From Salsipaludibacter albus (GTDB lineage Bacteria; Actinomycetota; Nitriliruptoria; Nitriliruptorales; Nitriliruptoraceae): DNA of 56,493 nucleotides. The stretch spans positions 1-56,493 of the forward strand of contig NZ_JAHOPH010000025.1 in assembly GCF_019798055.1 (NCBI RefSeq), in the 5' to 3' direction. Below the pieces are notes generated by a model. It ran no database searches. It was not told the DNA's origin and was given only the letters and a program-made list of their open reading frames with translations. A program made the position numbers and the translations under genes. This document shows, in pieces, positions 4,204 to 56,493 of the stretch; within the stretch, counting starts at the first letter, position 1, and each line of letters starts with the position of its first letter.

Positions 4204-4336
4204 GGTGGTGGCTCCGTCGGGGTGCAGTCCATGGAACCACGTCGCACGAAACGTGCCTCGATCGCCGACCCCGGTCGACCCGGGGTGGTGTAGGGTCGAA
4301 CGGCAGGACGGGGCGGCCTGGCACCACGGAGCAGGC

Positions 4337-15610: not shown

Positions 15611-15733
15611 ATCCATCTTGCGCGCTGGGCGTTGTGGGACGGGCCGCCTCACGCTGCTGGCAGCGGCCAACCGCGCTGGACGACGCCTCTGGGGCGGGTG
15701 TAGGCCGATGGTGTACCCACCATCGGAGACACC

Positions 15734-23315: not shown

Positions 23316-23504
23316 GGCGTGTCTCCGGCTGGTGGGCTCCTGCGTGCATCCATCACGCTACGAGTCGGCCCGTGAGGATCCGTCGTGGGCAACGCGGGGA
23401 TCGCGTTCGCGATGTGCAAAGATCGTGCAAGGAGCGTCGTGGCGGCCCGCTCCCGCGAGCGTGCGGCCATAGCCTTGCCACGTGCCGGTCCGAAGGCTCC
23501 ACTG

Positions 23505-34333: not shown

Positions 34334-36189
34334 TCCTCGCGACCCCCGGACGGGGCCAGTTCCTCGTCCATCGCCGGGTCGTCCGACGCCACCCCGTCGC
34401 CATCCCCGGCCCCCGGCAGCCCGGCGCCACGCCGGATCTCCGGTGACTCGGACTGGTCGTCGGCGTTCCGGCGCGATCGACGTGACCGGCGCGAGCGTCG
34501 GCCACCCTCGTCCTGCGGCTGGGCCCGGTACTCGTAGGCCCGCTGGTAGTAGTGGTAGGCGTTGGACGTCTGGTCCAGGTCGTTGACCACCAGGCCGGAC
34601 ACCACGGCGCGGACCGAGTCGAGCCGCTCGAGGGCGTCGTGCAGGGCCCGGCGACGGGACGTGCCGGCCCGGACCACCATCAGCACCGCGCTGACCTTCG
34701 GCGCCATCTCGAGGGCGTCCGAGACGGCCAGGACGGGTGGTCCGTCCAGGACGACCAGGTCGGTGCGCTCGCACAGGAACCGGACCAGCGAACGCATCCG
34801 GCCCGAGGCCAGCAGGTCGGACGGGTTCGGCGGGAGGGTCCCTGCCGGGAGCACCCGCAGGTTGTCCACCCCGATGTCGACCAGGACGTCGTCCACCTCG
34901 ACGTCGCCCGCGATGACGTCGGACAGCCCCATGCCCGCCGGGATGCCGAAGCGGTCGTGGATCGTCGGACGACGCATCTCGGCGTCGACCATGACGACCC
35001 GCATGCCCGCCCGGGCCGCCGACACGGCGAGGTTGCCCGCGGTCGTGCTCTTGCCGTCGCCGGGGTCGGGCGACGTCAGCAGGACGGCCCGACCGATGCC
35101 GTCGGTGTCGTGCTCGGACCAGGGGTCGTCGGGTTCGTCGCCGTCGTCGCGCCCGTGGGCGGCGAGCAGGAAACGGACCCCGGCCGAGAGCGCGCGGTAG
35201 GCCTCGGCGGGCGGACCCTGGGGGTCGACGATGGTCGCCAGGCGACGGCCCTCGTCGCTGTGGGGGATGCGGCCGAGCACCGGGAGCTGGCGGCCGGCGC
35301 GGCGCGCGTCGTCCTCGTCACGGATGACGTCGTCGAGGTGGTCGCGCAGGAAGGCCAGCCCGATCCCGAGCATCAGGCCGAGCAGGAGGGCGAGGATCGC
35401 GTTGCGCACGGGCCGCGGTGAGGCGGGTGTGTCGGGCACCTGCGCGGCATTGAGGACCTGCCCACCACCCTTGAGGAGTCGGGCGCCGACCTCGGCCTGG
35501 GCGGACTGGTTCGCCACGTCGCTCATCTGGGCGAGGAGGGAGGCTCGTTCGGCCGCCAGCGCTGCCACGGCGGGGTCCGCGCTGGGCGCCGGCTCGATCC
35601 CGACGTCCTCCAGCGGGTTGGACTCCGACACCAGCTCGGCCAGCTCCTCCTCGATCTCGGTGAGCCGCTCGGCCATCGCCTCGCGCCGGTCGCCCAGCGT
35701 GCGCTGGGCCGCCAGCAAGGAGGCGACCGCCTCGTCCCGGCGGTGGGCGAGGTAGTTGGCGGCGAAGGCGTCGGCGAGCTCGGCTGCCATCTCGGGATCG
35801 GGATCGCTGACCCGCACCTGCAGGACGCGGGTGTCGGGGACGACGGTCACCCGCACCTGGTCGAGCAGGTCGTCGGCGGACCGATCGAGCTCCAGCTCGT
35901 CGACGACCCGGTCGCTGACGGTGCGGGACGCGAGCACCCGTCGTTCGGTGTTGACGGTGGTGTCGCCCAGGACGATCTCCTCCAGGGACGCGTCGGAGGC
36001 CTGCTGGAACGGCTCGACCACCACCTCGGTCGTCGCCTCGTACACCGGCACGGTGTATCGGGTCGCGGCCAGGCCCAGCACGAACACCAGCGCAGTGACG
36101 GCCAGGACCGTCCACGTGCGGCGCCGGAGGACCTGCAGGACGTGTCCCAGCTCGAGCAGGGGTTCGTCGGGGGGCGCGGACGTCGTCAT
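34237..36189 (-). CDS. Wzz-type chain-length regulator fused to BY-kinase
   Basis: 650 residues. Wzz domain: helix 1 (VLAVTALVFVLGLAATRYTV), a long coiled periplasmic-type loop, and helix 2 (NAILALLLGLMLGIGLAFLR, about 270). Then a tyrosine autokinase: Walker A SPDPGDGKSTTAGNLA, Walker A' VVMVDAEMRRP, Walker B DLVVLDGPP. A tyrosine cluster follows (NAYHYYQRAYEYRAQ), then an unusual 90-residue tail rich in Arg, Ser, Asp and Gly. In known systems cycles of Tyr phosphorylation set polymer length together with Wzy. ATG shares one base with the stop of the polymerase (TGATG). The start is preferred because the Wzz helix follows directly. Confidence 0.9.
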   Translation of the reverse strand: MTTSAPPDEPLLELGHVLQVLRRRTWTVLAVTALVFVLGLAATRYTVPVYEATTEVVVEPFQQASDASLEEIVLGDTTVNTERRVLASRTVSDRVVDELELDRSADDLLDQVRVTVVPDTRVLQVRVSDPDPEMAAELADAFAANYLAHRRDEAVASLLAAQRTLGDRREAMAERLTEIEEELAELVSESNPLEDVGIEPAPSADPAVAALAAERASLLAQMSDVANQSAQAEVGARLLKGGGQVLNAAQVPDTPASPRPVRNAILALLLGLMLGIGLAFLRDHLDDVIRDEDDARRAGRQLPVLGRIPHSDEGRRLATIVDPQGPPAEAYRALSAGVRFLLAAHGRDDGDEPDDPWSEHDTDGIGRAVLLTSPDPGDGKSTTAGNLAVSAARAGMRVVMVDAEMRRPTIHDRFGIPAGMGLSDVIAGDVEVDDVLVDIGVDNLRVLPAGTLPPNPSDLLASGRMRSLVRFLCERTDLVVLDGPPVLAVSDALEMAPKVSAVLMVVRAGTSRRRALHDALERLDSVRAVVSGLVVNDLDQTSNAYHYYQRAYEYRAQPQDEGGRRSRRSRRSRRNADDQSESPEIRRGAGLPGAGDGDGVASDDPAMDEELAPSGGREDQAGGSRRTARARASSMVTPPPTASSRSIDTA

Positions 36190-37763
36190 CAGGGCCTCCG
36201 GGGGGTGGACGAGGCTGGTCGGTCGGTCGTTTCGGCTGTCGGCACGTCCGTCCGATCCGCTCGGACGAGCAGCAGGAGGACCACGACGAGCACCCCCTCC
36301 TGGAGCACGGAGGCGACCGCGTCGGTGACCTCCGAGAACGGCAGGCGGACGACGACGGCGGTCGTCCCGATCGCGTAGCACAGTGCCGCGATGCCGGCGG
36401 CGCGGCCCCGCTCGGTCCGCCAGTCGTCGATCGTGCGGATGGCCAGCCCCCACACGAGCGCGCCGACGCCGACGCCCAGGACGCCGAAGTTGATCCACAG
36501 CTCACCGAGGATCCCGGGTGGCACGCCCGTCCGGCGCTCCTCGCTCTGCCCGAAGACCGGTGCCCCGAGCTGCGGGCCGAGGCGCACCGGCGGCTTGTCC
36601 TCCCACAGTGTCCGTGGCACGGCGGCGTAGGTCCACGACACCATCGAGCGCCCGTACTGGTACGGGAACTGCTCGGGGACACGTTGCACGACCATGCCCG
36701 TGACCCCCACCGACAGGGACTTGCCGGACGCGACGGCGGTGCTGATCGACCGCCCGAGGCCCAGTGGATCGGCCGCCAGGTCGACCCCGCGCTGGTTGGC
36801 CGCGCGCACACCCTGGAGCGCAACGGCGGCCACGAAGCCCAGGACGAAGACCGTCACCAGCGTCTTGACCGAGGGCTCGCGCCGGCGCAGCGCGACCCAC
36901 ACCAGCAGGGCCCAGACGACCGGGACCATGATGGTGGTGCGCGAACTGAGGAAGTAGCCCTGGTAGGCCACGAGGAGGAACGACAGCAGGGTCACGGCGG
37001 CCAGTGGCGAGCGCCACGACAGGTGCCAGCGCTGGAGCGTGAACCACCCCAGGAGGAAGGCAGCCGACGACACCGACATCCCCAGCCGGTGGACGCCCAG
37101 GACGGTGAACTCGCTCGCACCCAGGTCGACCACCCGCTTGCGGGACGCCAGCAGGTCGGCCACCGACAGCGAGTTCGTGCGCTCGGCCAGCAGCAGCGTG
37201 AACAGCAGGCTGAGCAGGCACGCGACCAGGACCACGACGACGACCCGCCGTGGGGCCGGATCCCCGAGCCCGGTGCGTGCAACCCGCCTGATCACCCGCG
37301 TGCCGAACCGCTGGGCCGGGTCCCGCCGCGGCCACAGCCATCCCACCAGCAGGAGCAGCACGGCACCGGCGACCACGACCAGGCCGAGCGTGATCATGCC
37401 CACGGTGAGGTCGGGGAGGAAGTCCGAGCTCCCGGCGAGGTCGGGTGCGTACTGGGCCCACACGGTCTGGCCGAGCACGCCCATGACCATCAGCACGGTC
37501 AGCACGAACAGCGGGTGGGACAGGCGTCGGGACCCCTGCACCACCATGACCGAGACCGGCATCGCGGTGGTCGCGGCGGCCACGGCGAGGTTGAGCTCGG
37601 TGATGGACCGGGTTACGAGGAAGGCCGCGACGGCCGCGACGGCCACCATGCCCAGGACGGCCGCGACGCCCGCGACCAGCAACCCGGCGCCGTCGTGGCG
37701 ACCGCCTCGGAGGCCGGGTGCGTCACCGAGGCGTGGCGTGGTGGCCAGGACACCGCCACTCAT
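36189..37763 (-). CDS. O-antigen/exopolysaccharide polymerase (Wzy-like)
   Basis: 524 residues with about twelve hydrophobic helices and one large hydrophilic loop (about 330-420) containing QYGRSMVSWTYAAVPRTLWE and DKPPVRLGP. This pattern (the loop with RE/RT-LWxxKPP) is seen in Wzy-type and oligosaccharide repeat unit polymerases. It should join repeat units on the outer face of the membrane. It overlaps the chain-length regulator by one base, so the two form one operon. Sequence alone does not exclude an O-antigen ligase. Confidence 0.78.
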   Translation of the reverse strand: MSGGVLATTPRLGDAPGLRGGRHDGAGLLVAGVAAVLGMVAVAAVAAFLVTRSITELNLAVAAATTAMPVSVMVVQGSRRLSHPLFVLTVLMVMGVLGQTVWAQYAPDLAGSSDFLPDLTVGMITLGLVVVAGAVLLLLVGWLWPRRDPAQRFGTRVIRRVARTGLGDPAPRRVVVVVLVACLLSLLFTLLLAERTNSLSVADLLASRKRVVDLGASEFTVLGVHRLGMSVSSAAFLLGWFTLQRWHLSWRSPLAAVTLLSFLLVAYQGYFLSSRTTIMVPVVWALLVWVALRRREPSVKTLVTVFVLGFVAAVALQGVRAANQRGVDLAADPLGLGRSISTAVASGKSLSVGVTGMVVQRVPEQFPYQYGRSMVSWTYAAVPRTLWEDKPPVRLGPQLGAPVFGQSEERRTGVPPGILGELWINFGVLGVGVGALVWGLAIRTIDDWRTERGRAAGIAALCYAIGTTAVVVRLPFSEVTDAVASVLQEGVLVVVLLLLVRADRTDVPTAETTDRPASSTPRRP

Positions 37764-37995: not shown

Positions 37996-38850
37996 ATGGC
38001 GAATCCGGCGCTGGCCAAGTTCGTGCTCGACACGTTGCTGGCCCGAGGGCACCTCCAACGCGACCACCGGGTCCTGGCCGTGTGTGCCGGCCAGTTCGAC
38101 CGTCGCCTGTTCGAGGTCGTCGGGATGCCGGCCGTGACCCTGACCAACCTCGACGTCGAGGTCGGGTCCCGCCGCGAGGGCGAGCAGGCCGGTGGCGACG
38201 CCCCCTGGCTCCAGGCAGACGCCCACGACCTGCCCTTCGCCGACGGCGAGTTCGACGTCGCGTGGGTCAGCGACGGCCTGCACCACTGCCACTCGCCCCA
38301 CCGGGCCCTGGCCGAGATGCATCGGGTGAGCCGTCGGTGCGTCATCGCGCTGGAGAGTCGGGACTCGGTGGCCATGCGGGTCGCGACCCGGCTCGGGGTC
38401 GTGCACGACTACGAGGCGAACCAGCGCCTGCTCGCCACGCGCGAGCACGGCGGCAAGGACTTCGGCCCGGTGCCGAACTTCGTGTACCGCTGGACCGAGC
38501 GGGAGTTCACCAAGACGATGCTGGCGCTCGCTCCCGAACGGCGCATGGCCTTCGACTACTTCCACGCCCTGCGGCTGCCGGCCCGGTCCGGCCGGGTCGT
38601 GCGGACGGTCGGGGAGGCGGTGTTCCGCATGGCCCCGGGCCAGGGCAACAGCCTGGGGATGGTCGCGCGGCGGGGCGACCACCAGCCTTGGCTGGCCACC
38701 GGCGACGGCGGCCTGCGCCTGGCCGACGACGTCACGACCCGGGCTGACGTGGTCGGCCCGCGGCCCCGGGTGCACCACCACGTGCTGCGCGGGACGGACC
38801 GCTGGCACGGGTGGCCGCCGGGGCAGCGGGTCGACGTGGACGACCACTGA
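37996..38850 (+). CDS. SAM-dependent methyltransferase (class I)
   Basis: 284 residues. The Rossmann core shows VLAVCAGQFDRRLFEV (motif I variant lacking the usual GxGxG), LQADAHDLPFADGEFDVAWV and SDGLHHCHSPHRALAEMHRV, the ubiE-like order. The C-terminal half (VPNFVYRWTEREFTKTMLAL) is specific to sugar or lipid methyltransferases of polysaccharide loci. GGAAGGGG precedes MANPAL, so this start is preferred over one seven codons upstream. It ends directly against the flippase start; substrate unknown, likely a sugar of the repeat unit. Confidence 0.82.
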   Translation: MANPALAKFVLDTLLARGHLQRDHRVLAVCAGQFDRRLFEVVGMPAVTLTNLDVEVGSRREGEQAGGDAPWLQADAHDLPFADGEFDVAWVSDGLHHCHSPHRALAEMHRVSRRCVIALESRDSVAMRVATRLGVVHDYEANQRLLATREHGGKDFGPVPNFVYRWTEREFTKTMLALAPERRMAFDYFHALRLPARSGRVVRTVGEAVFRMAPGQGNSLGMVARRGDHQPWLATGDGGLRLADDVTTRADVVGPRPRVHHHVLRGTDRWHGWPPGQRVDVDDH

Positions 38851-40119
38851 ATGGGGAGCACCCGGTCGAGCTGGCGTGACCGCCTGCGGCAGGCACGGAC
38901 CCGGCGGGTCGCGTGGGGCATCGCGGACCAGGGCCTCTTCACGCTCACCAACTTCGTGATGACCGTGGTGGTCGCGCGCCTCGTGTCGTCGCGCGCCTTC
39001 GGTGCCTATGCCCTGGTGATCTCGATCTCGGTGATGCTCCAGGGCGGGACCCAGAGCCTGGTGGCCGAGCCACTGGCCGTGCGATTCAGCCGACCGGACG
39101 GGCGCGAGGTGCGCGCCGCCGTCCGGGGTGCGACCGGCCTGGCCCTGGCGATCGGCGTGGTGGGGTCGGTCGGGATGACCGCGTGGGGGTTGGGATTCCC
39201 CTCGACGGCGACCGGTGCCCTGCTGGGCATGAGCCTGGTCCTGCCCGCGGTCCTGGTCCAGAACGTGTTCCGGTACTCGCTCGTCGCCCAGGGGCGGGCC
39301 CGCGAGGCCTTCCTCAACGACGTCGCCTGGGCGGTCACCCAGGCGATCGCCACGGTCGTGGTCCTGCTGGTCGTCGGACCGCGGGTGGGCCCGCTGGTCG
39401 TGGCGTGGGGGATCGGTGGGCTGGTCGGCGCGATCGTCGGGGCGTGGCAGGTCCGGGTCGTTCCGGCCCCGACCGCGGGCCTGGCGTGGTTCCGCTCCCA
39501 TCGCGACCTCGGGCTGCCCTACCTCGGGGAGTACCTGGCGACCAACGGGTCGGGACAGGCCACCATGTGGATCGTCGGGCTGGCCGCCGGACTGTCCGAG
39601 CTGGCCTGGTTCCGGGGCGGCTGGACACTGCTCGGCCCCGTGATGGTGCTCACGGCAGGCCTGCGCATGGTGCTCGTCCCCGAGGCGGCGAGGGTGGCCG
39701 GGCGGCGTCCCGCCGGGCTCGAGCGCCTGGCCCGGATGGCGTCGGCGGGTGCGGGACTCGCGACGCTGGCATGGGGGGCGATCTTCCTGGTCGTCCCGGA
39801 CGCGGTCGGCGTGCAGCTGCTGGGGGCCACGTGGGCCGGCGCGAGCCTGGTGGTGGCCCCCCTGCTCGTCCAGCGGCTCGGACTGTCGCTGGCGCTCGGT
39901 CCGTTCGTGGGCCTGCGGGGCCTGGCCGATGCACGACGCACGATGGTGACCCGGACCGGGGTCGGGGTGCTGTCCCTGGCACTCGGCGCGATCGGGGCCG
40001 TGGTGGGCGGGGCCGTCGGTGCCGCGACCGGTCTGGCCGTCGCGCAGGTGCTCGCGCTGCCCGCGTGGTGGCACCTGTTCCGGGTGAGCCGTCGCGAGGC
40101 GGCAGTGGCGGTCGGCTGA
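38851..40119 (+). CDS. Polysaccharide flippase (Wzx-like)
   Basis: 422 residues with about twelve hydrophobic helices. The N-terminal pattern AWGIADQGLFTLTNFVMTVV then ARLVSSRAFGAYALVIS is typical of the MOP-superfamily PST/Wzx exporters. Role in the pathway: flips lipid-linked repeat units across the membrane to the polymerase. Starts immediately after the methyltransferase stop (TGA-ATG), so it is co-transcribed with it. With Wzy and Wzz in the neighbourhood it completes the Wzx/Wzy-dependent set. Confidence 0.87.
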   Translation: MGSTRSSWRDRLRQARTRRVAWGIADQGLFTLTNFVMTVVVARLVSSRAFGAYALVISISVMLQGGTQSLVAEPLAVRFSRPDGREVRAAVRGATGLALAIGVVGSVGMTAWGLGFPSTATGALLGMSLVLPAVLVQNVFRYSLVAQGRAREAFLNDVAWAVTQAIATVVVLLVVGPRVGPLVVAWGIGGLVGAIVGAWQVRVVPAPTAGLAWFRSHRDLGLPYLGEYLATNGSGQATMWIVGLAAGLSELAWFRGGWTLLGPVMVLTAGLRMVLVPEAARVAGRRPAGLERLARMASAGAGLATLAWGAIFLVVPDAVGVQLLGATWAGASLVVAPLLVQRLGLSLALGPFVGLRGLADARRTMVTRTGVGVLSLALGAIGAVVGGAVGAATGLAVAQVLALPAWWHLFRVSRREAAVAVG

Positions 40120-40164: not shown

Positions 40165-41010
40165 TCAGGCGGACTCCCCGACCCACCGGTGGAGTCGGTC
40201 CGCCCCGAACACCTCGGCCAGGTGGCGTGCGAGGTCGTCGTCGACCTCGGCCCGCCACCCCACGGCACTGCCGCGCCGCATGGTCGGGGATCCCGTCCAG
40301 CCGATCCAGGTCCCTGCCTCGGCCACGAAGACCTCGTCGTCGGGCGGGGTGAGCCCGAGCAGGGTCGCGACCCGGGCCAGGGCCTCGTCCGCACGCTCGG
40401 CCGACGCGACCAGGTCCTCGAACCGCAGGGTCAGGTCGGCCCCGGAGAGCCAGCCCTCGTGGTGGTCGTAGCGATCGGCCAACGGCTCGAGCCCCCTGTC
40501 CCCGTCACGTGCGGCGACCCCGGTCATCGAGGCAAGGATCGCGTCGGGCAGCGACATCGCCTGCCAGCGTCGGTGCAGCCGATGGCGGGGCAGCCGACGG
40601 ACGTAGTGCGCATGGCTGACCGCGACGGCCCGGGGGTCCCGGTGGATGAACAGGGTGTGCACGTCGTGCGTCGCGAACGTGTCCCGCAGTCGGGGCGACC
40701 AGGGGTGGTGCAGGGTCATGAACTGCCCGGGGCGCAGCGTCGCGAGCGCCCGGTCCAGAGCGGACAGGTCCGGACCACTGCGGTCGTCCGCGAGGTCGCC
40801 GGGGACCAGGTGGACGTGGGCGTCCGCCACCTGGCCGGTCCCGGCGAGCACGCTGGTCAGCAGGTGGGTCCCTGCCTTCGGGATGCTGATGATGGCGACC
40901 CGGCAGTCGGCTCGGCCGGTCCGCCAGCGGCTGGCCAGCGCGAGCAGGCGGCGGCCGAGCCGGTGCAGGGTCGGGGACCGGGCGACGAGCCGGTAGGAGA
41001 GCCGGGCCAC
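40165..41010 (-). CDS. Sulfotransferase 1
   Basis: 281 residues. The 5'-phosphosulfate loop SIPKAGTHLL (about 42-51) and the 3'-phosphate motif HRDPRAVAVSHA mark a PAPS-dependent sulfotransferase. LRFEDLVAS and a terminal catalytic-domain helix follow. Known chemistry: moves sulfate from PAPS to a hydroxyl, here probably of the polysaccharide. Begins one base after the stop of sulfotransferase 2, so three minus-strand genes (glycosyltransferase and the two sulfotransferases) form one operon. Confidence 0.85.
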   Translation of the reverse strand: MARLSYRLVARSPTLHRLGRRLLALASRWRTGRADCRVAIISIPKAGTHLLTSVLAGTGQVADAHVHLVPGDLADDRSGPDLSALDRALATLRPGQFMTLHHPWSPRLRDTFATHDVHTLFIHRDPRAVAVSHAHYVRRLPRHRLHRRWQAMSLPDAILASMTGVAARDGDRGLEPLADRYDHHEGWLSGADLTLRFEDLVASAERADEALARVATLLGLTPPDDEVFVAEAGTWIGWTGSPTMRRGSAVGWRAEVDDDLARHLAEVFGADRLHRWVGESA

Positions 41011-41011
41011 C

Positions 41012-41836
41012 TCAGCGACCCTCCGCGCCCAGGTCGTAGCCGACGCGCGCGGCCACCCGGCCGAACGTGTCGGCCATGGCCTCGGACTGCGCGGTCGTGG
41101 CGAGGTCGGGCCAGCGGTCGTCGTCGCGTCCCCGGACGAACGAGCCGGGACCGTCGCCTCCGGTCACGATGGTGTGCTCCTTCGCCCGCATCCGCCGCCG
41201 GGAGCTGGCCTCGACGGCCGGGGCCAGCTGCTCGTGGTCCGACGGCAGCCCGAGCCAGGCGGCGACGCGCGCCAGGGTCGTCCGGGTGTCGGCCAGCAGG
41301 TCCTCGTAGCGCAGCACGACGAGGTCCCGGTCGTCGCCCAGGGCGAGCCCGGACCGGGCGTGTGCCGCCCACGACCCCCAGTTGCCGACCTCGCCAGCGA
41401 GGAACAGCCGGAGGAACCGGTCGAAGCCGCCGGACCAGCCGTCACGACGTGCATGGAAGAAGTACGACACGCAGACGTCCCGGGGGTCCCGGACGAGGTA
41501 CAGCACGCGCCGCGTCCGAACGATCCGCGGTCCGGGCAGTTCGTGACTGTGCACGAACCGACCGCCGTCCGGCAGGACCAGGCCGCGCCCCGGGTTGGTG
41601 ACCGGGGGCAGGAGGTCACGGACGACGGCGAAGTCCGGCTGGGCGTCGGGTCGGGCCAGGGTCACCAGGAGGAACCGCAGCCAGGTGGACCCGGACTTCG
41701 GGTAGTGGGCCAGGTAGACGTCGTCGCGTTCGACGTGTCGATGTCGCCACCACACGACCGGCAGCCGCAGCGAGCGCCGGACGTCGCTCGGCAGCCGTCC
41801 GAGCCCGGGCGTCGAGACCAGGGGACTGGCGGTCAC
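41012..41836 (-). CDS. Sulfotransferase 2
   Basis: 274 residues. DDVYLAHYPKSGSTWLRFLL holds the PSB loop (YPKSGSTW) and LYLVRDPRDVCVSYFFHARR the 3'-phosphate site; VVLRYEDLLAD, LGLPSDHEQL and the C-terminal loop RGRDDDRWPDL (RKG-like) complete the classic Sulfotransfer_1 family. The GTG start overlaps the glycosyltransferase stop by four bases. This type is closest to cytosolic-style sulfotransferases acting on small hydroxyl or sugar acceptors. Probably sulfates a lipid-linked intermediate inside the cell. Confidence 0.88.
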   Translation of the reverse strand: MTASPLVSTPGLGRLPSDVRRSLRLPVVWWRHRHVERDDVYLAHYPKSGSTWLRFLLVTLARPDAQPDFAVVRDLLPPVTNPGRGLVLPDGGRFVHSHELPGPRIVRTRRVLYLVRDPRDVCVSYFFHARRDGWSGGFDRFLRLFLAGEVGNWGSWAAHARSGLALGDDRDLVVLRYEDLLADTRTTLARVAAWLGLPSDHEQLAPAVEASSRRRMRAKEHTIVTGGDGPGSFVRGRDDDRWPDLATTAQSEAMADTFGRVAARVGYDLGAEGR

Positions 41837-42945
41837 GGCAGGCTCCTCGTGCACGATCCGGCTCCGGCCGCCTGCTCGAGGATCGCCCGGAACCGCGTGG
41901 CCCAGGGCTGCCGGGCCCGCGTCGCCCGGGCGATCGCGGCACGGCGTGGTGCCAGGCGCGAGGGTTGTCGGAGGATCTCGGCCAGCACCCGTGCCAGGTC
42001 GGCCCCGTCCGACACGATCCAGCCCCGGTCCCCGACCTGGCCCGGGATGCAGCCGCGGTCGGTCGCCACGACCGGGACGCCGGCGTGGAGCGCCTCGTGG
42101 ATGACCAGCGGCTCGGCCTCGTTGTCGTAGCGCGTGGGCAGCACGAACACGTCCAGCGCCGCGAAGAACCTCCGCTTGGCCACGCCGTGCACCGGCCCGA
42201 GGTGGTCCACGGCGTCCGGGTGGCGCTGGCGCAGCGTCGCGACCGCCTCGGTCGATGCGCGGTCGGCGGTCGGCCCGGCGATGACGGCGCGGAGCCGGTG
42301 GCCCTCGGTCAGCAGGTCGTCCATGACGGCACAGAAGGTGTCGGTGCCCTTGTCGGCGGTGAGGTTGCCCAGCATGCCGAGCGTCAGGACGTCGTCGTCC
42401 GTCTCGTGGTGGCGCCGTCTCGTGGGTGCTTCCTCGTCCTCGCCGACCCAGTCGTTGTGCAGGACGACCGTCCGTGGGGCCGGGTAGCGGGCCGCGAACC
42501 CGGCGCGCAGCCGCTCGCACAGCAGGACGTGGGTGACCGTGTCGCCACCGACCCGGGTGATCGCGGCCATCAGCCTCGACGGGGCGTTGACGTAGCGGGC
42601 GACGTGGTGGTGCAGCACCACCGGCACGCCCAGCGACCGGCACATCGCGACCTGGGCCAGCACGCGTGGCAGGCCGAAGCGCGAGTCCGACACCAGGTAG
42701 ACCACGTCGAGGCCGCGCAGCCGCGCCCGGGTCAGGCCCAGTCCGTGGACCAGGAACCGCGCCTGTCGCTCGAGCCGCCACGACCACGCGGACTGGCCGT
42801 CGCGTGCACCGATCGTGGCGACGTGCACGCCGGCGAACTCGGCATGGAGCACGTCGACCGCCCGGGCGGTCACCAGGGTCATCCCGTCGATCGGGGGTGG
42901 CACCGCCACGACGGCGGCGACACGCGTGCGCGACCTGCCCGGCAC
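41833..42945 (-). CDS. Glycosyltransferase family 4
   Basis: 370 residues of GT-B type. N-terminal domain with PPPIDGMTLVTARAV and a switch LVSDSRFGLPRVLAQ; C-terminal domain with LGMLGNLTADKGTDTFCAVM, VIAGPTAD, VHGVAKRRFFAALDVFVLPT and the GT4 signature RYDNEAEPLVIHEALHAGVP. GGGAG precedes the chosen GTG; the longer open frame upstream would run into the divergent sulfotransferase. Substrate unknown; it should add one sugar to the lipid-linked repeat unit and is co-transcribed with two sulfotransferases. Confidence 0.88.
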   Translation of the reverse strand: MPGRSRTRVAAVVAVPPPIDGMTLVTARAVDVLHAEFAGVHVATIGARDGQSAWSWRLERQARFLVHGLGLTRARLRGLDVVYLVSDSRFGLPRVLAQVAMCRSLGVPVVLHHHVARYVNAPSRLMAAITRVGGDTVTHVLLCERLRAGFAARYPAPRTVVLHNDWVGEDEEAPTRRRHHETDDDVLTLGMLGNLTADKGTDTFCAVMDDLLTEGHRLRAVIAGPTADRASTEAVATLRQRHPDAVDHLGPVHGVAKRRFFAALDVFVLPTRYDNEAEPLVIHEALHAGVPVVATDRGCIPGQVGDRGWIVSDGADLARVLAEILRQPSRLAPRRAAIARATRARQPWATRFRAILEQAAGAGSCTRSLP

Positions 42946-43083
42946 GTCGTTGCTCCCGTCGTCGTCGACCCGCGTCGCGAGCCTACGCGTGCGTGTCGTG
43001 GTGGCGGCCGTGCACGGCCGGGAACGAAACCCCCCGGCGCTAGGATCACGGGCCGCGCCCACCCCTCGTCGTCGGAGTCGACC

Positions 43084-44040
43084 ATCGCGCCGTCGCCCGT
43101 CCCGCGGCTGGACTTCGCGATCGTCGGTGCCCCGAAGTCGGCGACCACCGCGCTGGCGAGCTACCTGGGCCACCATCCGCGGATCGCGATGTCCCGCCCC
43201 AAGGAGCCCTACACCTACGGCGCGGACCTCGCGCCACTGCGCGCCCTGGTCGGCACCCGTCGGCCGAGCGGCGCCGACGGGGGCCGGGTCGCAGCGACCG
43301 TGGACGCCGGCCGACTGGTCGGCGAGGCGTCGACCCTCTACGCCAGTTCGCCCACCGCCGTCTCCGAGCTGCTCGCCGACCATCCGCACGCCCGGCTGGT
43401 CCTGATGGTCCGGGACCCGGTGCGGCTGGCCCGGTCGTTCCACGGCGAGATGCGCTTCCGCGGCTACGAGGACGAGCCGTCGTTCACCCGTGCCTGGGCG
43501 CTCCAGGAGGCCCGTCGCGAGGACCCCGGTCTCGTGCCCCGGCGCTGCCCGCTCCCGCGGCTCCTGCAGTACGGCGACGTGGCCGCGCTGGGCACCCAGC
43601 TGCAGCGCCTGCACGACCAGGCCGGCCCCGACCGCGTGCTCGTGCTGTTCCAGGAGGACCTGGCCGCGGACCCCCGGGGGACCTACCGGGCGGCGCTGGA
43701 CTTCCTGGGAGTCGCCGACGACGGCCGCGAGACCTTCCCGGCGGTCAACGTGGCCAAGCGTCCGCGCTGGCCATGGCTGAACCGCGTCCTGCTGTCGGCC
43801 CCGGTCGTGCGATCGGGCCGGTGGGCGCGGTCGATGTTGCCCGACGCGCTCCACGGTCCGGTCGGTCGTGCGTTCCGGTCCGTGACCAGGCGACCCGCCG
43901 ACACCGCCACGACCGACGCGGTCGTCGACCTGCAGCGGATCGCCGCCGAGCTCGCCGTCGAGGTGGACCTGCTCGGCGCCTTGACCGGTCGTGACCTCGG
44001 CCACTGGGGCCGGGTCGAGCCGCCGCCGCGTTCCTCCTGA
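43084..44040 (+). CDS. Sulfotransferase 3 (start codon uncertain)
   Basis: About 318 residues. RLDFAIVGAPKSATTALASY is the PSB-loop start of Sulfotransfer_3/heparan-type enzymes and VLMVRDPVRLARSFHGEMRF the 3'-phosphate motif; LVLFQEDLAADP follows. No ATG, GTG or TTG occurs in frame between the upstream stop-free region and the conserved loop. The best guess is an ATC codon with GGAG seven bases upstream; CTG at 43108 is another. A TAGGAT box at 43040-43045 may be its -10. This enzyme class typically sulfates polysaccharides. Confidence 0.78.
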   Translation: MAPSPVPRLDFAIVGAPKSATTALASYLGHHPRIAMSRPKEPYTYGADLAPLRALVGTRRPSGADGGRVAATVDAGRLVGEASTLYASSPTAVSELLADHPHARLVLMVRDPVRLARSFHGEMRFRGYEDEPSFTRAWALQEARREDPGLVPRRCPLPRLLQYGDVAALGTQLQRLHDQAGPDRVLVLFQEDLAADPRGTYRAALDFLGVADDGRETFPAVNVAKRPRWPWLNRVLLSAPVVRSGRWARSMLPDALHGPVGRAFRSVTRRPADTATTDAVVDLQRIAAELAVEVDLLGALTGRDLGHWGRVEPPPRSS

Positions 44041-44092: not shown

Positions 44093-44860
44093 ATGGACTC
44101 GCCACCCGACGACGCTCGGGACCCGCTCGGTGCCATCGCCCCGGAGCTGGGCGCCGGAGGCTTCACACGCCACGACGGGACCATCGAGTTCTACACCCGG
44201 GTGCGGGCCCTGCTCGACGCGGACAGCCGGGTCCTGGACTACGGGGCTGGCCGTGGCAGCTGGGTGGCCGAGGATCACGCGCCGGCGCGCCGCGACCTCC
44301 AACTCCTGCGGGGCGACGTCGCCCGGGTGGTCGGCGCCGACGTCGACCCGGTCGTGCAGGACAACCCCGCGCTCGACGAGGCCGTGGTCATCACCCCCGG
44401 CGCGCCCCTGCCCTTCGACGACGCCTCGTTCGACCTGGTGGTCGCCGACTGGGTCTTCGAGCACCTCGACGACCCGGCGACCGCATGCCCCGAACTGGCC
44501 CGCGTCGTGCGTCCCGGCGGCTGGGTGTGCGCACGGACCCCCAACCGGCGGGGCCTGATCGCCGCCGGCGCACGGCTGGTGCCCAATCGCCTGCACACCC
44601 GCGTGCTCTCCCGACTCCAACCCGATCGCCAGCCGGAGGACGTCTTCCCGACGGTGTACGCCCTCAACACCCCGGCCGACCTCCGGAGGAACTTCCCGGA
44701 CTTCGACCACCACACGTACGGCTGGCGCGGTGACGCGACCTACTTCGGCACGAGCCCGGCGATGGTCCGGGTCGGGCGGGTCCTCCACCACGTCAGCCCC
44801 CCGGGGCTCGAGCCGGTGTGGCACGTCTTCCTGCGACGGCGACCCACCGGCGCGAGCTGA
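44093..44860 (+). CDS. SAM-dependent methyltransferase
   Basis: 255 residues. SAM motif I VLDYGAGRGSWVAED, then PLPFDDASFDLVVADWVFEH, LARVVRPGGWVCARTPN, all standard class I signatures. C-terminal text (FPTVYALNTPADLRRNFPDF) is typical of sugar-locus methyltransferases. GGGGGATC precedes the ATG MDSPPDD; 52 bp after sulfotransferase 3, in the same direction, likely the same operon. Substrate not evident. Confidence 0.87.
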   Translation: MDSPPDDARDPLGAIAPELGAGGFTRHDGTIEFYTRVRALLDADSRVLDYGAGRGSWVAEDHAPARRDLQLLRGDVARVVGADVDPVVQDNPALDEAVVITPGAPLPFDDASFDLVVADWVFEHLDDPATACPELARVVRPGGWVCARTPNRRGLIAAGARLVPNRLHTRVLSRLQPDRQPEDVFPTVYALNTPADLRRNFPDFDHHTYGWRGDATYFGTSPAMVRVGRVLHHVSPPGLEPVWHVFLRRRPTGAS

Positions 44861-44877: not shown

Positions 44878-45711
44878 TCAGTCCCGGGTCGGGAGGCGGC
44901 GGGTGGCGACGACCCCGAAGTCGGTCCGCATGGAGGTCGCCTCGCCCAGGCGCTGGAACAGCGGGGCCTGGCTGGCCCAGTAGCGGAACACCTCCACCTC
45001 GCCGAAGTGGTCGTCGAGGAGCCGGGCCACGGCCGTCTCGTCGACCCCGTCGCGGACGACGTGGTACTCGACCAGGTCCGACGGCTCGGTGTCGTCGTGG
45101 ATCCCCCGCAGGCGCCGGACCCGGGTCGCCAGCCCCCGGGCGTAGTCCCCCTGCAACAGCCGCCACGCCAGGTAGGCGCCGCGGTCCGCCCAGTGGTCGC
45201 GCGCGGGCATGTCGGGGTAGTGCAGGGGGTCGGCGGCGGTGAACAGGGAGCCGCCGGGCGCGACCAGCGGCACCAGGCGGTCCAGGAACGACAGGTAGTC
45301 GGGGATGTGGTGGAGCACGGCAGTCATGACCGCGAGGTCCCACTGCCGGTCCGCGGCGAGGACGTCCTCGCCCGTCCGGTCGTGCAGGACCTCGACCCGA
45401 CCGGTCGAGCCGAGCTCGGACCGCAGCCGTGCCGCGCTGGCCGCGCTGGTCTCGGTCACCGTGACGTGCGCCCCGGCGTCGAGCAGGCAGCGGGTGAACG
45501 TGCCGTGGCCGCCCCCGACCTCCAGCACGTCGCAGCCCCCGGTGCTCGCGCGGCGACCCGCGACCAGCCCGCGGAGTCGTGCCTCCAGCATCGACCGGAG
45601 CGATCGGTGGCGCAGGTGGGGCGAGCCCTTCTCGTAGTCGTGGGCCGTGCCGTGACCGGTGTCCTGGGCCGCGACGACGGCGGCGACGTGGTGCTCGTCG
45701 GAAGGGGCCAT
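44878..45711 (-). CDS. SAM-dependent methyltransferase (divergent orientation)
   Basis: 277 residues. Opens with a helical region ([20 protein letters not shown]), then motif [38 protein letters not shown] and [21 protein letters not shown] methyltransferase of the class seen for O-methylation in antibiotic or surface-glycan loci. It points against gmd, 149 bp from its start, and converges with the previous methyltransferase 17 bp away. Function in the locus is inferred only from position. Confidence 0.85.
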
Positions 45712-45860: not shown

Positions 45861-46907
45861 ATGCCGCTCGCACTGGTCACGGGCATCACGGGACAGGACG
45901 GGTCGTACCTGGCCGAGCTGTTGCTGGCGAAGGGCTACGAGGTCCACGGGGTCATCCGGCGGGCATCGACGTTCAACACCGAGCGCATCGACCACGTCTA
46001 CCAGGACCCCCACGAGCCGGACGTGCGGCTCCACCTCCACTACGGCGACCTCACCGACGGCTCCCAGCTCGCCCGCCTGGTCCGGACCATCGAGCCCGAC
46101 GAGATCTACAACCTGGCGGCGCAGTCCCACGTCGGGGTCAGCTTCCAGCAGCCGGAGTACACCGGCAACGTGGACGCCCTGGGGACCATCCGGCTGCTCG
46201 AGGCGATCCGCGAGGCCGGCGTCGACACCCGGTTCTACCAGGCTGCCACGTCGGAGATGTTCGGCGACGCCCCCGCCCCACAGTCCGAGGACAGCCCGTT
46301 CCGACCACGCTCCCCGTACGCGGCGGCGAAGCTGTACGCCTACTGGGCGACCGCCAACTACCGCGAGGCCTACGACCTGTTCGCGGTCAGCGGGATCCTG
46401 TTCAACCACGAGGGCGAGCGACGCGGCAAGACCTTCGTGACCCGCAAGATCACCCATGGCGTGGCGCGGATCGTCGCCGGTCTCGACGACGCCCTGTACC
46501 TCGGCAACCTCGACGCGGTCCGTGACTGGGGGCACGCCCAGGACTACGTCCGTGCCATGTGGATGATGCTGCAGGCCGACGCCCCGGTCGACTACGTCAT
46601 CGGCACCGGCGAGACCCACACGGTGCGCGAGTTCTGCGACGCGGCCTTCTCCCACGTCGGGCTGGACTGGCGGGACTGGGTCCGCATCGACCCCGCCTAC
46701 TACCGCCCGACCGAGGTCGACTTCCTGCAGGCCGACGCCACCCGTGCCCGGCGCGACCTCGGCTGGAAGCCCGAGATCGGCTTCGACGAGATGGTCCACC
46801 GGATGGTCGTGCACGACCTCGACGCCGAGGCGGGGCTCGACCTCGAGCGGGCACGGGAGCAGGCGACGCGGTTGCGGCCGTCCGCCCCGCCACGACCCAC
46901 CCCATGA
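45861..46907 (+). CDS. gmd: GDP-mannose 4,6-dehydratase
   Basis: 348 residues. NADP site [47 protein letters not shown], catalytic SEMFG with the Tyr-x3-Lys in [13 protein letters not shown], and [17 protein letters not shown] are all diagnostic. Converts GDP-D-mannose to GDP-4-keto-6-deoxymannose. Stop overlaps the next gene (ATGA), the usual gmd-fcl arrangement. AGGG precedes the ATG closely, with GGAGAGG slightly further up. Confidence 0.97.
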
Positions 46908-47848
46908 CCGACGTCGACTTCGACCTGGCCGGTCGGCGGGTCTGGGTGGCGGGCCACACCGGGCTGGTCGGCCGGGCGCTGCTACGTCGGCTCGCGGACG
47001 AGCCGGTCGAATTGGTGACCGCCCGCTCCGCCGAGGTCGACCTCACCCGCCAGGACGAGACCGAGGAGTTCGTGGCCCGGACCCGACCGGACGTGTGCAT
47101 CATGGCGGCCGCCCGGGTCGGCGGGGTCCACGCGAACCGGTCCGCGCAGGCGACCTTCCTCTACGACAACCTGGTCATGGCGGCCAACACCGTCGAGGCC
47201 TGCCGGCGCAACGACGTGGCCAAGACCGTGCTGCTGGGCTCGACCTGCATCTATCCCCGTGAGGCACCCCAGCCGATGCCGGAGTCGTCCCTGCTGACCG
47301 GCCCGCTCGAGGAGACCAACGAGGGCTACGCCATCGCCAAGATCGCGGCCCTGGAGCTGGCGAAGATGTACCGGCGCCAGCACGGCATGGACGCCATCGC
47401 GCTGATGCCGACCAACCTGTACGGGCCGGGCGACGACTTCGACCCCCAGACCTCCCACGTCCTGCCGGCCCTGCTCCGCAAGGTCCACGAGGCCCACGAG
47501 TCGGGAGCGGAGACGGTCGAGCTGTGGGGGACCGGCACGCCGCGACGGGAGTTCCTGCACGTCGACGACCTGGCGGACGCGGTCGTGTTCGCCCTGCGAC
47601 ACGTCAGCCGCGAGCAACACGTCAACGTGGGGGTGGGTCGCGACATCGCCATCGCCGACCTGGCCCGGCTCATCGCCGACGTCGTGGGGTGGGACGGCGA
47701 CTTCACCTTCGATCCGGACATGCCGGACGGCACGCCCCGGAAGCTGGTCGACGTCTCGGTCCTGTCCGGACTCGGCTGGACGGCGTCGATCGGCCTCGAG
47801 GAGGGGATCCGCAGCACGCTCGCGTGGTATCGGGACCATGGTGGCTGA
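46904..47848 (+). CDS. fcl: GDP-L-fucose synthase
   Basis: 314 residues. Nucleotide site [36 protein letters not shown], catalytic Tyr-x3-Lys in [15 protein letters not shown], then [20 protein letters not shown], matching the epimerase/reductase WcaG family nearly end to end. Makes GDP-L-fucose from the Gmd product using NADPH. Overlaps gmd by four bases and the next glycosyltransferase by eleven, so the three are one translational unit. Confidence 0.97.
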
Positions 47849-49097
47849 CGGGCCGACCATCGTCACCCCGACGTTCCATCCCGAGCGCATCGGGACCCCG
47901 CACTATGTGACCGACCTGGTGGACGAACTCGACGCACGCGGCGTCGCCGTGGAGGTCGTGACCGGTCAGCCCCACTACCCGGCGTTCGAACGCTTCGAGG
48001 GGTACGGCCGTGGGACCCGGCGCGATGTCCACGGCCGGGTTCCCGTCCACCGGATGCCCACCGTCGTGCCCCGGGGTGGGAAGGTCGCCTGGCGGCTGGC
48101 GAGCGAGGCCAACTTCCTGGTCCAGGTCGCCTGGGCCCGCCTGCGTGGCCGGCTGCCCTCGAGTCAGCAGGTCCTGGCGGTCAGCCCGGGCAGTCCGTTG
48201 TCGATCCTGGCCGGTCGGCTCGTCGCAGGTCGCGACGGGCGGCTGGTCGCGCTGGTGCACGACGTCGCCTTCGGCCTGGCAGCGGCCACGGCCGGCCCAC
48301 GGGCGCGCCGCATGGTCGGTGCGCTGCGGCGGTTGGAGGTGTGGTCACTCGACCGCGCAGACGCGGCAGCGGTGCTGTCGGAACGGATGGCCGACGAACT
48401 GCGCGCCGCCGGGGTGACGACGCCGATGGTCGAGGTGCCGCTCTGGACGACGGTCGAGGTGGCGACGCCGATCGCGGAGGTTCCCATGGTCGTGCAGTAC
48501 AGCGGCAACCTGGGACGCAAGCAGGGGGTCGCCGACCTGGTCGTGCTGGCCACGTGGCTCGCCGAGCACCTGCCGGCAGCGCGGCTGGTCATCCGTGGCA
48601 GCGGGAGCCAGCGAGGCGTGCTGGAGCGCGACGTCGTGGCGCGGGGGCTCGACAACGTCACCTTCGAGGACCTCGTGGCCCGCGACCAGCTCGCCGCCGC
48701 GCTGGCCGACTGCAGTCTCCACGTCGTGCCGCAGCTGCCCGAGGGGGCGGCCTACGCCGTGCCCTCCAAGATCTTCAACGTGCTGGCCGTCGGGCGGCCC
48801 GTCGTGGTCACGGCCGAACCGGACACGCCCGTCGCCGACCTCGCGTCGGCGACCCCGGCCGTGGTCCGAGTGGCCCCCGGGGACGTCGCCGCCATGGGGC
48901 GAGCCGTCCGGGACCTGTTGCTCGACGATCCGCACCGCCGGGAGCTCGGCGAGCTCGGACGTCGTTTCGTGGCGACCGAGGCCACCCGCGACGCCGCGGC
49001 CGACCGCCTGGTGGGGCTGCTGGCCGTCACCGGCTCGCCGCCGGTCAGGACGCGAGCCCGCCGAGCCCGTCGGGTTCCGCTCCGAACTCGCCGCTGA
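47838..49097 (+). CDS. Glycosyltransferase family 4 (WcaI/WbuB-like)
   Basis: 419 residues. N-terminal TPTFHPERIGTPHYVTDLVD and VEVVTGQPHYPAFERFEGYG recall the WcaI/WbuB subgroup used in colanic-acid and O-antigen loci; the C-terminal GT4 part has VVQYSGNLGRKQGVADLVVL, LVIRGSGSQRGVLERDV, LPEGAAYAVPSKIFNVLAVG and RPVVVTAEPDTP. Its tight overlap with fcl makes fucosyl transfer a reasonable guess. The last 53 bases overlap the convergent sugar transferase. A GTG one codon downstream of the ATG is an equally possible start. Confidence 0.87.
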   Translation: MVADGPTIVTPTFHPERIGTPHYVTDLVDELDARGVAVEVVTGQPHYPAFERFEGYGRGTRRDVHGRVPVHRMPTVVPRGGKVAWRLASEANFLVQVAWARLRGRLPSSQQVLAVSPGSPLSILAGRLVAGRDGRLVALVHDVAFGLAAATAGPRARRMVGALRRLEVWSLDRADAAAVLSERMADELRAAGVTTPMVEVPLWTTVEVATPIAEVPMVVQYSGNLGRKQGVADLVVLATWLAEHLPAARLVIRGSGSQRGVLERDVVARGLDNVTFEDLVARDQLAAALADCSLHVVPQLPEGAAYAVPSKIFNVLAVGRPVVVTAEPDTPVADLASATPAVVRVAPGDVAAMGRAVRDLLLDDPHRRELGELGRRFVATEATRDAAADRLVGLLAVTGSPPVRTRARRARRVPLRTRR

Positions 49098-49920
49098 CCG
49101 GTGCCGTCCCGACCTCGGGGTCGGGGGGACCGGCCACGACCTCGACGGGTCCCGACCCGACCGTGCCCGGGTCGCCGGACCCGGCCTGCTCCGTCCGGCA
49201 GCGGAGCCAGCCGCGGCTCTGGAAGGGCCGGGGGACGTCGCGCAGGCCCTTGGGCTCGGCGAGCCCGATCATCACCAGTGCCGTCCAGAAGAGGATCCAC
49301 AGGTCCAGCCGGATGCCGCCGTGGCGCAGGTACCACAGGTCGTACTCCGGGGCCTGGCTCGGGAGCCCACCCGTGTGGTCGCCGATCTGCCACAGGCAGG
49401 TGCACCCCTGCGGCACGCGGGTCCGTGCGTCGTCGTAGATCGAGGAGACGGGTTCGAACTCGTCCGGCATCCGGGGACGGGGTCCGACCAGCGACATCCG
49501 GCCACGAAGGACCAGCCAAAGTTGGGGCAACTCGTCCAGGTGGAGGCGCCGGAGGAGCTGCATGATCGGTGGGATGGCGGACGCGTCGAGGTCGTGCTTG
49601 AGCGCGTAGGGGTTGGCGGAGCTCGGCATGGTGCGGATCTTCACCATGGTGAAGGGGTCGCCATGACGCCCGAGGCGACGCTGGGTGAAGAAGGGCCACT
49701 CTCGGTACGTCACCCACGAGATGGCCGCGAGGACGACGACGATCGGCGTGGTGGCAACGACGGCGAGTGCCCCGACAATCACGTCGAAACATCGTTTGTA
49801 GACCAGCCGGCGATCCACGCTCCGGACACTTGCGTCCCAGAACACGTGGAGGATCCGCTGACGCTCATTGACCCAGCGTCGCGGCAGGACGAGTGGTTGT
49901 GATGACAACGGACGTGACAA
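49045..49920 (-). CDS. Initiating sugar-1-phosphate transferase (WcaJ/PglC-like)
   Basis: 291 residues. One membrane segment (KRCFDVIVGALAVVATTPIV) is followed by the catalytic domain: FFTQRRLGRHGDPFTMVKIRTM, DLDASAIPPIMQLLRRLHLD ELPQL and MSLVGPRPRMPDEFE, matching the bacterial sugar transferase family that loads the first sugar phosphate onto undecaprenyl phosphate. The usual PGxTGLWQ segment is CTCLWQIGDHTG, an unusual variant. A long Gly/Pro/Asp-rich tail (about 60 residues) follows. It starts the repeat unit. The divergent promoter region is shared with the phosphatase. Confidence 0.88.
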   Translation of the reverse strand: MSRPLSSQPLVLPRRWVNERQRILHVFWDASVRSVDRRLVYKRCFDVIVGALAVVATTPIVVVLAAISWVTYREWPFFTQRRLGRHGDPFTMVKIRTMPSSANPYALKHDLDASAIPPIMQLLRRLHLDELPQLWLVLRGRMSLVGPRPRMPDEFEPVSSIYDDARTRVPQGCTCLWQIGDHTGGLPSQAPEYDLWYLRHGGIRLDLWILFWTALVMIGLAEPKGLRDVPRPFQSRGWLRCRTEQAGSGDPGTVGSGPVEVVAGPPDPEVGTAPVSGEFGAEPDGLGGLAS

Positions 49921-50710: not shown

Positions 50711-50737
50711 GCCGGCTCAGGCCGGCTCAGGCCGGCT
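50711..50737. repeat. 10-bp tandem repeat at end of galE
   Basis: GCCGGCTCAG occurs twice and is followed by GCCGGCT, covering the galE stop codon (50727-50729). The GCCGGC core is self-complementary. It lies in the 29-bp gap and tail between two convergent genes. Confidence 0.7.

Positions 50738-52968: not shown

Positions 52969-56493
<3,525 letters not shown>

Follow-up and report, generated by a model that had tools for sequence, protein, structure and literature searches.

Three sulfotransferases from separate clades in a predicted Wzx/Wzy polysaccharide locus of Salsipaludibacter albus

When three sulfotransferase genes lie packed beside a glycosyltransferase gene in a bacterial chromosome, do they serve one pathway, and what would that pathway make? 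The question is raised by a contig of the actinobacterium Salsipaludibacter albus (NZ_JAHOPH010000025.1, 56,493 nucleotides), one of the 79 contigs of a 4.25 Mb genome; the window analysed here is this whole contig (C18). An earlier note on this DNA had placed three sulfotransferases (ST1, ST2 and ST3) and a family 4 glycosyltransferase (GT4a) in the piece 40165-44040, with two of the sulfotransferase genes in an operon with GT4a and the third divergent from it. Coordinates, loop motifs and Pfam matches bear out the first statement, and the gene order (GT4a-ST2-ST1 on the minus strand, ST3 on the plus strand) bears out the second:

40168 to 41010, minus strand: ST1, SULT-type, of a widespread bacterial subfamily (PF00685, 27.1 bits, cut-off 22)
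41015 to 41836, minus strand: ST2, SULT-type (PF00685, 93 bits)
41836 to 42945, minus strand: glycosyltransferase GT4a (Glyco_trans_1_4, PF13692, 70.6 bits)
43084 to 44037, plus strand: ST3, heparan-sulfate-type, with a noncanonical start (PF13469, 51 bits, cut-off 27)

The GT4a stop and the ST2 start overlap as GTGA and one base separates the ST2 stop from the GTG start of ST1: these three minus-strand genes are tightly coupled in one operon. We consider it likely that all three proteins are cytosolic carbohydrate sulfotransferases, dependent on 3'-phosphoadenosine 5'-phosphosulfate (PAPS), which act in a single Wzx/Wzy exopolysaccharide pathway and give a sulfated exopolysaccharide; the cells probably wear a coat of this sulfated polymer.

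The motifs of all three proteins, together with fold models of ST1 and ST3, predict PAPS-dependent sulfotransferases. Each keeps the P-loop lysine and the Arg/Ser motif of the 3'-phosphate site, and the loop motifs are those that had been noted before (SIPKAGTH in ST1, YPKSGSTW in ST2, VGAPKSATT in ST3). In ST1 the P-loop lysine is K45, the 3'-phosphate site holds R124 and S132, and R245, G247 and W252 lie near the C-terminus; H101 is the presumed catalytic base. Across 41 sequences K45, H101 and R124 do not vary and S132 hardly does. The C-terminal RRGSAVGW is what we take to be an RKGxxGDW-like motif of the kind we call a SULT motif and, with a His at the base position, makes ST1 SULT-type. 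Its predicted model (predicted local distance difference test score, pLDDT, 88.8) has a sulfotransferase fold and superimposes on SULT7A1 with Z 15.8 and a root-mean-square deviation (rmsd) of 3.7 over 218 residues (other SULTs, Z 14 to 15); the sequence profile likewise favours SULTs (1.2e-17 versus 3.6e-5). Heparan sulfate 3-O-sulfotransferase (3-OST) and NDST chains were absent from the best 50 structural matches listed for ST1, which is no proof of absence. ST2 carries K47 in its P-loop, the sequence VHSHELP with H98, and the 3'-phosphate-site motif RDPRDVCVS; H98 aligns with the His of SULT2B1 and is its presumed base, and the C-terminal RGRDDDRW diverges from the RKGxxGDW-like form. The closest PDB sequences to ST2 are cytosolic SULTs (SULT2B1, E 1.3e-18), and its sulfotransferase fold is assigned by sequence alone.

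ST3 is of another kind. Its P-loop lysine is K18, its 3'-phosphate site holds R110 and S118, and its presumed catalytic base is E41 in the motif KEP, a glutamate that is invariant in 16 aligned sequences and whose counterpart in 3-OST-3 is the Glu of EPHF, the catalytic base of that enzyme. The profile of ST3 matches 3-OST with E 4.7e-40 and NDST1 with 5.6e-34, and no SULT does better than 4.7e-9. Its model (pLDDT 85.1) has a sulfotransferase fold that fits the bacterial sulfotransferase 3rnl with Z 27.6 (rmsd 2.2, 235 residues) and 3-OST-3 with Z 22.7 (rmsd 2.5, 223 residues), while the best SULT reaches Z 12.9. ST3 thus resembles 3-OST and NDST in fold and in profile, and like them has the Glu of an E-P motif where the base is expected. 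Those are eukaryotic Golgi enzymes, whereas ST3 is bacterial, is without a membrane segment and shares 20% identity with 3-OST-3 in the structural alignment. HS3ST1 and NST1 are reported to use Glu as base, and sulfotransferase groups to differ in having a His or a Glu base (PMC11625862). Sequence and predicted structure place ST3 in the group of heparan-sulfate-type (Glu-base) enzymes together with XssA of the cyanobacterial synechan cluster and human 3-OST and NDST, clearly among carbohydrate sulfotransferases.

A phylogeny, which the earlier note had named as the check on its claim that the three are not recent duplicates, supports that claim. The tree (138 sequences, 238 columns, FastTree, midpoint root) was built from 148 sulfotransferases by dropping identical ones, with sulfotransferase stretches of fewer than 170 or more than 420 residues left out. 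ST1 falls in a 60-tip clade of its own family (support 0.883), ST2 in a five-tip clade with a D. shibae sulfotransferase and L024-type genes (0.815), and ST3 in a 30-tip clade that includes XssA (0.999); the labels XssA and XssE were assigned to two Synechocystis proteins from the gene order in the paper. The three therefore neither form one duplicated clade nor fall among non-carbohydrate enzymes of evident substrate, the outcomes that the earlier note had named as refuting, and ST3 sits with carbohydrate enzymes. Within a 15-protein set, BLASTP gave E values of 0.002 for ST1-ST2, 2.6 for ST1-ST3 and 2.6e-4 for ST2-ST3. Gapped pairwise alignment gave 32% over 245 aligned residues for ST1-ST2 (Z 7.2), 33% over 239 for ST2-ST3 (Z 6.9) and Z -1.1 for ST1-ST3; Z rather than identity is the guide here, because GC-rich proteins give high gapped identity even at Z near 0. 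By these comparisons ST1-ST2 and ST2-ST3 share distant superfamily ancestry, ST1 and ST2 represent two separate SULT-type (His-base) clades and ST3 the heparan-sulfate type, so that two catalytic types are predicted side by side. It is plausible that the three enzymes modify different positions or sugars.

The surroundings of these genes point to their substrate. A polysaccharide locus spans about 34.2-51.7 kb around them, in which Wzx, Wzy, Wzz, a priming transferase and glycosyltransferases all stand together; by gene content it is a putative, near-complete Wzx/Wzy locus, with Wzx and Wzy just below their Pfam cut-offs. The single glycosyltransferase of the earlier note holds for the piece that it described, but the locus has two GT4 genes, a priming transferase and the Wzx/Wzy apparatus. 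The other genes of the locus are:

34240 to 36195, minus strand: Wzz co-polymerase (chain length) fused to a tyrosine-kinase-like domain (Pfam Wzz 47 bits; AAA_31 26 bits, cut-off 27)
36192 to 37763, minus strand: Wzy-type polymerase, strongly hydrophobic (O-ag_pol_Wzy weak, 22.1 bits, cut-off 26.6)
37996 to 38847, plus strand: S-adenosylmethionine (SAM) methyltransferase 1 (Methyltransf_11, 50.5 bits)
38851 to 40116, plus strand: Wzx-type flippase, strongly hydrophobic (Polysacc_synt_3 weak, 21.4 bits, cut-off 23)
44093 to 44857, plus strand: SAM methyltransferase 2
44881 to 45711, minus strand: SAM methyltransferase 3
45867 to 46904 (start approximate), plus strand: GDP-mannose 4,6-dehydratase, Gmd (PF16363, 468 bits)
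46922 to 47845 (start approximate), plus strand: GDP-L-fucose synthase-like epimerase, Fcl (Epimerase, 210 bits)
47838 to 49094, plus strand: glycosyltransferase GT4b
49048 to 49920, minus strand: priming sugar-phosphate transferase, PGT (Bac_transf, 147 bits)
50092 to 50694, plus strand: low-molecular-weight tyrosine phosphatase, Wzb-like (LMWPc, 65.5 bits)
50730 to 51725, minus strand: UDP-glucose 4-epimerase-like protein for UDP-galactose supply, which we take to be GalE (sequence reading; profile match as a short-chain dehydrogenase/reductase sugar enzyme)

The true start of the Wzz/kinase protein lies near 36195, within a longer open reading frame. Windows of 19 residues with hydrophobicity above 1.6 number 56 in Wzx and 77 in Wzy. 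The name Fcl is given because the gene adjoins Gmd and from its sequence type. Among the scanned genes of the locus there was no ABC transporter; the Wzx/Wzy genes are found there instead. Adjoining GalE is a gene for UDP-galactopyranose mutase (52972-54378, minus strand), so that galactofuranose may be a component of a polymer.

PAPS is cytosolic, and none of the three sulfotransferases has a transmembrane-type segment (no 19-residue window above 1.6), so they should act where PAPS is. The N-termini of ST1 and ST2 are amphipathic (moments 0.64 and 0.61), which may, as a weak inference, hold both proteins at the membrane. Genes for a CysD-like protein, a CysN-like GTPase (both named from Pfam domains and order) and a separate adenosine 5'-phosphosulfate (APS) kinase lie in a row elsewhere in the genome. 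The only other PF01507 protein of the genome is CysH, which has CC and CxxC; we take this CC...CxxC pattern to be a mark of APS reductases, in which case PAPS need not serve cysteine synthesis. Sulfation is thus the probable use of PAPS in this genome. The APS kinase gene has a flippase-like neighbour (contig C56, L035:6896-8095), which was considered and set aside, having no Pfam family and no match to three Wzx profiles.

Relatives of the three genes were sought at a cut-off of E 1e-10 in 100 related genomes, where they are scattered: ST1 relatives occur in 4, ST2 relatives in 5 and ST3 relatives in 16. Of the four places with an ST1 relative, L024, L026 and L027 lie close to Wzz and have sulfotransferases of other types, and L025 has neither. 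A wider GTDB scan with an ST1 alignment yielded 82 loci from many phyla, of which 80 were kept; L024, L025 and L027 are the same records as L038, L041 and L085 of that scan, so the two samples are not independent. At least one class of polysaccharide marker was found in 52 of the 80 loci and at least two in 37; Wzx was present in 29 (within 1.5 kb in 15), a sulfotransferase of another class in 23 and one of heparan-sulfate type in 13. A 62-locus subset, with Mesorhizobium reduced to one locus (seven of eight dropped) and loci shorter than 10 kb dropped, gave 50, 36, 29 and 23 for at least one marker, at least two markers, Wzx and other-class sulfotransferases. As a control, 20 stretches of 20 kb each were taken at regular intervals from three related genomes; a marker was present in 3 of them, and neither Wzx nor a sulfotransferase in any. 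For ST3, 15 stretches centred on relatives of the gene, covering 17 of the 24 places in relatives and 13 of the 16 genomes, had a marker in 14 cases; the Wzz-centred stretches L142 and L179, which also hold ST3-type genes, were excluded from this count since they carry a marker by choice. These counts exclude open reading frames shorter than 120 residues, matches with E above 1e-5 and weaker overlapping matches. Contigs of the compared loci are often cut, sulfotransferase classes are profile labels rather than proven families, and sensitivity is biased towards ST1 loci because the profiles were built from these and a few relatives.

Seen from the other side, 47 loci centred on Wzz (one per relative with Wzz) held a sulfotransferase in 10 cases, at least two in 7, at least three in 2, and at least two different classes in 6. 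Sulfotransferases are thus uncommon in Wzz loci and, where one occurs, there is usually another. One locus from the same class of bacteria (L138) has three sulfotransferase classes, Wzz, GT4, Wzy and Wzx together, a close parallel in architecture. Plasmids were also searched for relatives of all three. On D. shibae pDSHI04 an ST2 relative (30% identity) is flanked by GDP-L-fucose synthase and gmd; NodZ is near it and a second sulfotransferase about 9 kb away. Two ST2 relatives lie side by side amid polysaccharide genes on a Bradyrhizobium plasmid. The closest plasmid relative of ST3 found, on P. psychrophila pQS-1 (43% over 234 residues), neighbours glycosyltransferases and an export protein, with a second sulfotransferase about 12 kb away; in S. 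pontiacus an ST3 relative accompanies a bifunctional sulfate adenylyltransferase/APS kinase and EpsG. A sulfotransferase relative is also present on Sinorhizobium pSymB, in a record without annotation. Relatives of ST1 and ST3 therefore recur in polysaccharide loci, often with other sulfotransferase classes, with weaker support for ST2.

According to the simplest model, the priming transferase and the two GT4 enzymes would build a short repeat, linked to undecaprenyl diphosphate and containing fucose, and the three sulfotransferases, with up to three methyltransferases, would decorate this lipid-linked repeat at the cytosolic face. Each sulfotransferase would have its own position, and fucose would be among the sulfated sugars. 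Wzx would then flip the sulfated repeat and Wzy polymerize it under the control of Wzz, so that the cell would carry a sulfated exopolysaccharide. A stricter version can be offered only tentatively, and we would sooner expect it to fail than to hold: one priming transferase and two GT4s suggest about three sugars per repeat, and if each sulfotransferase added one sulfate there would be about one sulfate per sugar. The prediction of dense sulfation is drawn by analogy with synechan, where two sulfotransferases are reported for two sulfates per eight sugars (PMC8205485). If true, an actinobacterium would make a polyanion resembling fucoidan or heparin, with sulfation much denser than in synechan, and SULT-type and heparan-sulfate-type enzymes would be combined in one pathway. 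The number of sulfates per repeat is a prediction that can be checked.

Several observations weigh against the proposal of one sulfated-polysaccharide pathway. The product, in its polymeric nature as in its sulfation, is predicted from genes, and the Wzx and Wzy assignments are based on sub-threshold Pfam scores. The PAPS genes lie outside the cluster, on another contig (APS kinase searches matched contigs C56 and, weakly, C31, not C18). ST1 and ST2 are most like small-molecule SULTs, and since these are their nearest PDB relatives the carbohydrate assignment relies on gene context, which gives good support for ST1 and weaker support for ST2. The ST1 model also matches tyrosylprotein sulfotransferase with Z 14.2, near its best SULT value, so that the fold alone separates the two groups poorly. 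No ST1 relative was found in the single same-genus genome (87% complete). Markers were absent from 28 of the 80 ST1 loci, eight Mesorhizobium loci among them, and Mesorhizobium L103, read gene by gene, is without evident polysaccharide neighbours. For ST2, where all seven places in relatives were examined, markers occurred at only three, two of them on stretches picked for ST1 or Wzz. Finally, ST3 is without a canonical start codon.

The ST1-family genes of Mesorhizobium (L097-L104) have no polysaccharide markers and perhaps serve a different substrate. It was considered whether these homologues might be KpsS, described as a fucosyl sulfotransferase (PMC11625862); the L103 neighbourhood is unlike a polysaccharide locus.

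Among other explanations, the one that survives best would have the three sulfotransferases act as proposed but on a wall-linked glycan or a glycolipid, anchored rather than released. LytR-CpsA-Psr proteins ligate glycans to the wall, and one is encoded in the window at 4007-5521, about 29 kb from the locus, a distance that speaks against a link. Sulfated lipo-oligosaccharides are reported from rhizobia and mycobacteria (PMC8205485), while Wzz and Wzy point to a long polymer, although wall-linked polymers can also be long. We regard an anchored product as unlikely.

It is improbable, in our judgement, that only ST3 and perhaps ST1 act on the polysaccharide, with ST2 a glycolipid or small-molecule sulfotransferase that lies in the operon by chance. 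Its resemblance to SULT2B1 and the three marker-bearing places out of seven would fit this explanation, but the ST2 start codon overlaps the GT4a stop codon, an ST2-type gene in the L138 locus neighbours Wzy, an XssA-type sulfotransferase and Wzx, and the D. shibae and Bradyrhizobium relatives lie in polysaccharide loci. These points favour a place for ST2 in the shared pathway.

Partial decay of the locus, with ST3 or ST1 nonfunctional and fewer than three sulfates added, seems very improbable. It would account for the weak Pfam score of ST1 and its altered loop, without the GGGS common in its family, and for two features of ST3. One is the absence of an ATG, GTG or TTG start: none occurs in its frame between 42844, inside GT4a on the opposite strand, and 43189, past the P-loop. 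Translation likely starts at ATC at 43084, 6 bases behind GGAG, or at CTG at 43108, or else there is a base-call error. The other is an Ala in place of a nearly invariant P-loop Gly; XssA, however, has the same Lys-x-Ala-Thr loop, and its deletion is reported to suppress exopolysaccharide (EPS) accumulation (PMC8205485). Moreover, the ST1 and ST3 frames are open, their lysine, base and phosphate-site residues are kept and both structural models are confident. Recent tandem duplication of one sulfotransferase, for which the adjacency of ST1 and ST2 and their pairwise Z of 7.2 (a distant relationship) might be cited, can be dismissed given the three separate clades and the weak BLASTP links, and the tree rules it out.

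The pathway favoured here, one in which all three enzymes sulfate the repeat of a single exopolysaccharide, has precedents (synechan, wps-1 and the Vibrio and Cobetia capsules), so the kind of system is already known. Synechan was described in 2021 from the xss cluster of Synechocystis PCC 6803, where deletion of XssA abolishes bloom formation (PMC8205485). Both loci combine Wzx, Wzy and a co-polymerase with priming and further glycosyltransferases and with sulfotransferases of distinct subfamilies (XssA and XssE there), and ST3 lies within the XssA clade. The xss cluster differs in belonging to a cyanobacterium, in its plasmid location and in having two sulfotransferases for eight glycosyltransferases (PMC8205485); the S. 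albus locus has three for two GT4s and a priming transferase, along with GDP-fucose genes and methyltransferases, and neither ST1 nor ST2 clusters with XssA or XssE. For the synechan cluster the reported regulators are a STAND activator, XssQ, together with a two-component pair (PMC8205485), and regulators of both types are also near the S. albus locus. Here a SARP-type regulator of 1691 residues (27084-32156, plus strand; winged helix, BTAD, nSTAND1 and WD40) and a response regulator/histidine kinase pair (23385-25558, plus strand) both lie ahead of the polysaccharide locus.

Actinoplanes missouriensis wps-1 (PMC13390465, June 2026) is described as an actinomycete Wzx/Wzy locus with sulfotransferases of different families and a methyltransferase; its sulfated EPS is predicted and unverified, and both sulfotransferases are needed for normal sporangium formation. 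It differs in that its two sulfotransferases are of the Gal/GlcNAc/GalNAc and heparan sulfate types and in having a GH26 enzyme and an adjacent APS kinase family gene (PMC13390465). Vibrio sp. KMM 8419 and Cobetia marina KMM 1449 make sulfated capsules, reported in 2024 and 2025 (PMC11641403, PMC11766843), which resemble the present case in having sulfotransferase genes in polysaccharide clusters and whose sulfated polymers are established; three sulfotransferase genes are reported for KMM 8419, one assigned to an O-antigen (PMC11641403). Unlike S. albus, these are marine Gram-negatives with rhamnose-containing capsules, and PAPS genes inside the cluster and ABC-transporter export (PMC11641403, PMC11766843) are two of their traits that the S. 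albus locus does not share.

In the open-licence papers searched, we found no report of an actinobacterial Wzx/Wzy locus with three sulfotransferases. Two papers call sulfated exopolysaccharide in bacteria exclusive to cyanobacteria (PMC8205485, PMC13390465), the second of them raising actinomycetes as possible makers, while the sulfated capsules of marine bacteria are the subject of two others (PMC11641403, PMC11766843). The present locus and the recurrence of sulfotransferase-bearing Wzx/Wzy-type loci in Actinomycetota and other phyla suggest that the capacity for sulfated polysaccharide is much wider than cyanobacteria. The enzymes are predicted to be cytosolic, to consist of a single domain, to act on carbohydrates and to represent two catalytic types; they could be of use in the animal-free making of sulfated glycans.

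Two genome-wide Pfam searches and the window scan together give at least six sulfotransferases in the S. albus genome; there may be more, since the genome-wide searches themselves missed ST3. Three of six within 4 kb has a probability of about 5.5e-5 under simulated uniform placement, a weak yardstick given that genes of related function normally cluster. The genome has another polysaccharide-type locus (contig C34, L033) with Wzz, Wzx, a priming transferase, GT4 and a sulfotransferase of the XssE-like clade. In a search for a common regulatory motif, four divergent intergenic stretches, mostly GC-rich, share 44 8-mers, 18 9-mers and 6 10-mers, against 34, 10 and 3 in shuffles that kept base composition only, and no motif is proposed from these numbers. 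Elsewhere in the window, two phage-integrase-type recombinase genes lie in the left half (7128-7919, minus strand; 15704-16633, plus strand) and dnaX starts at the right edge.

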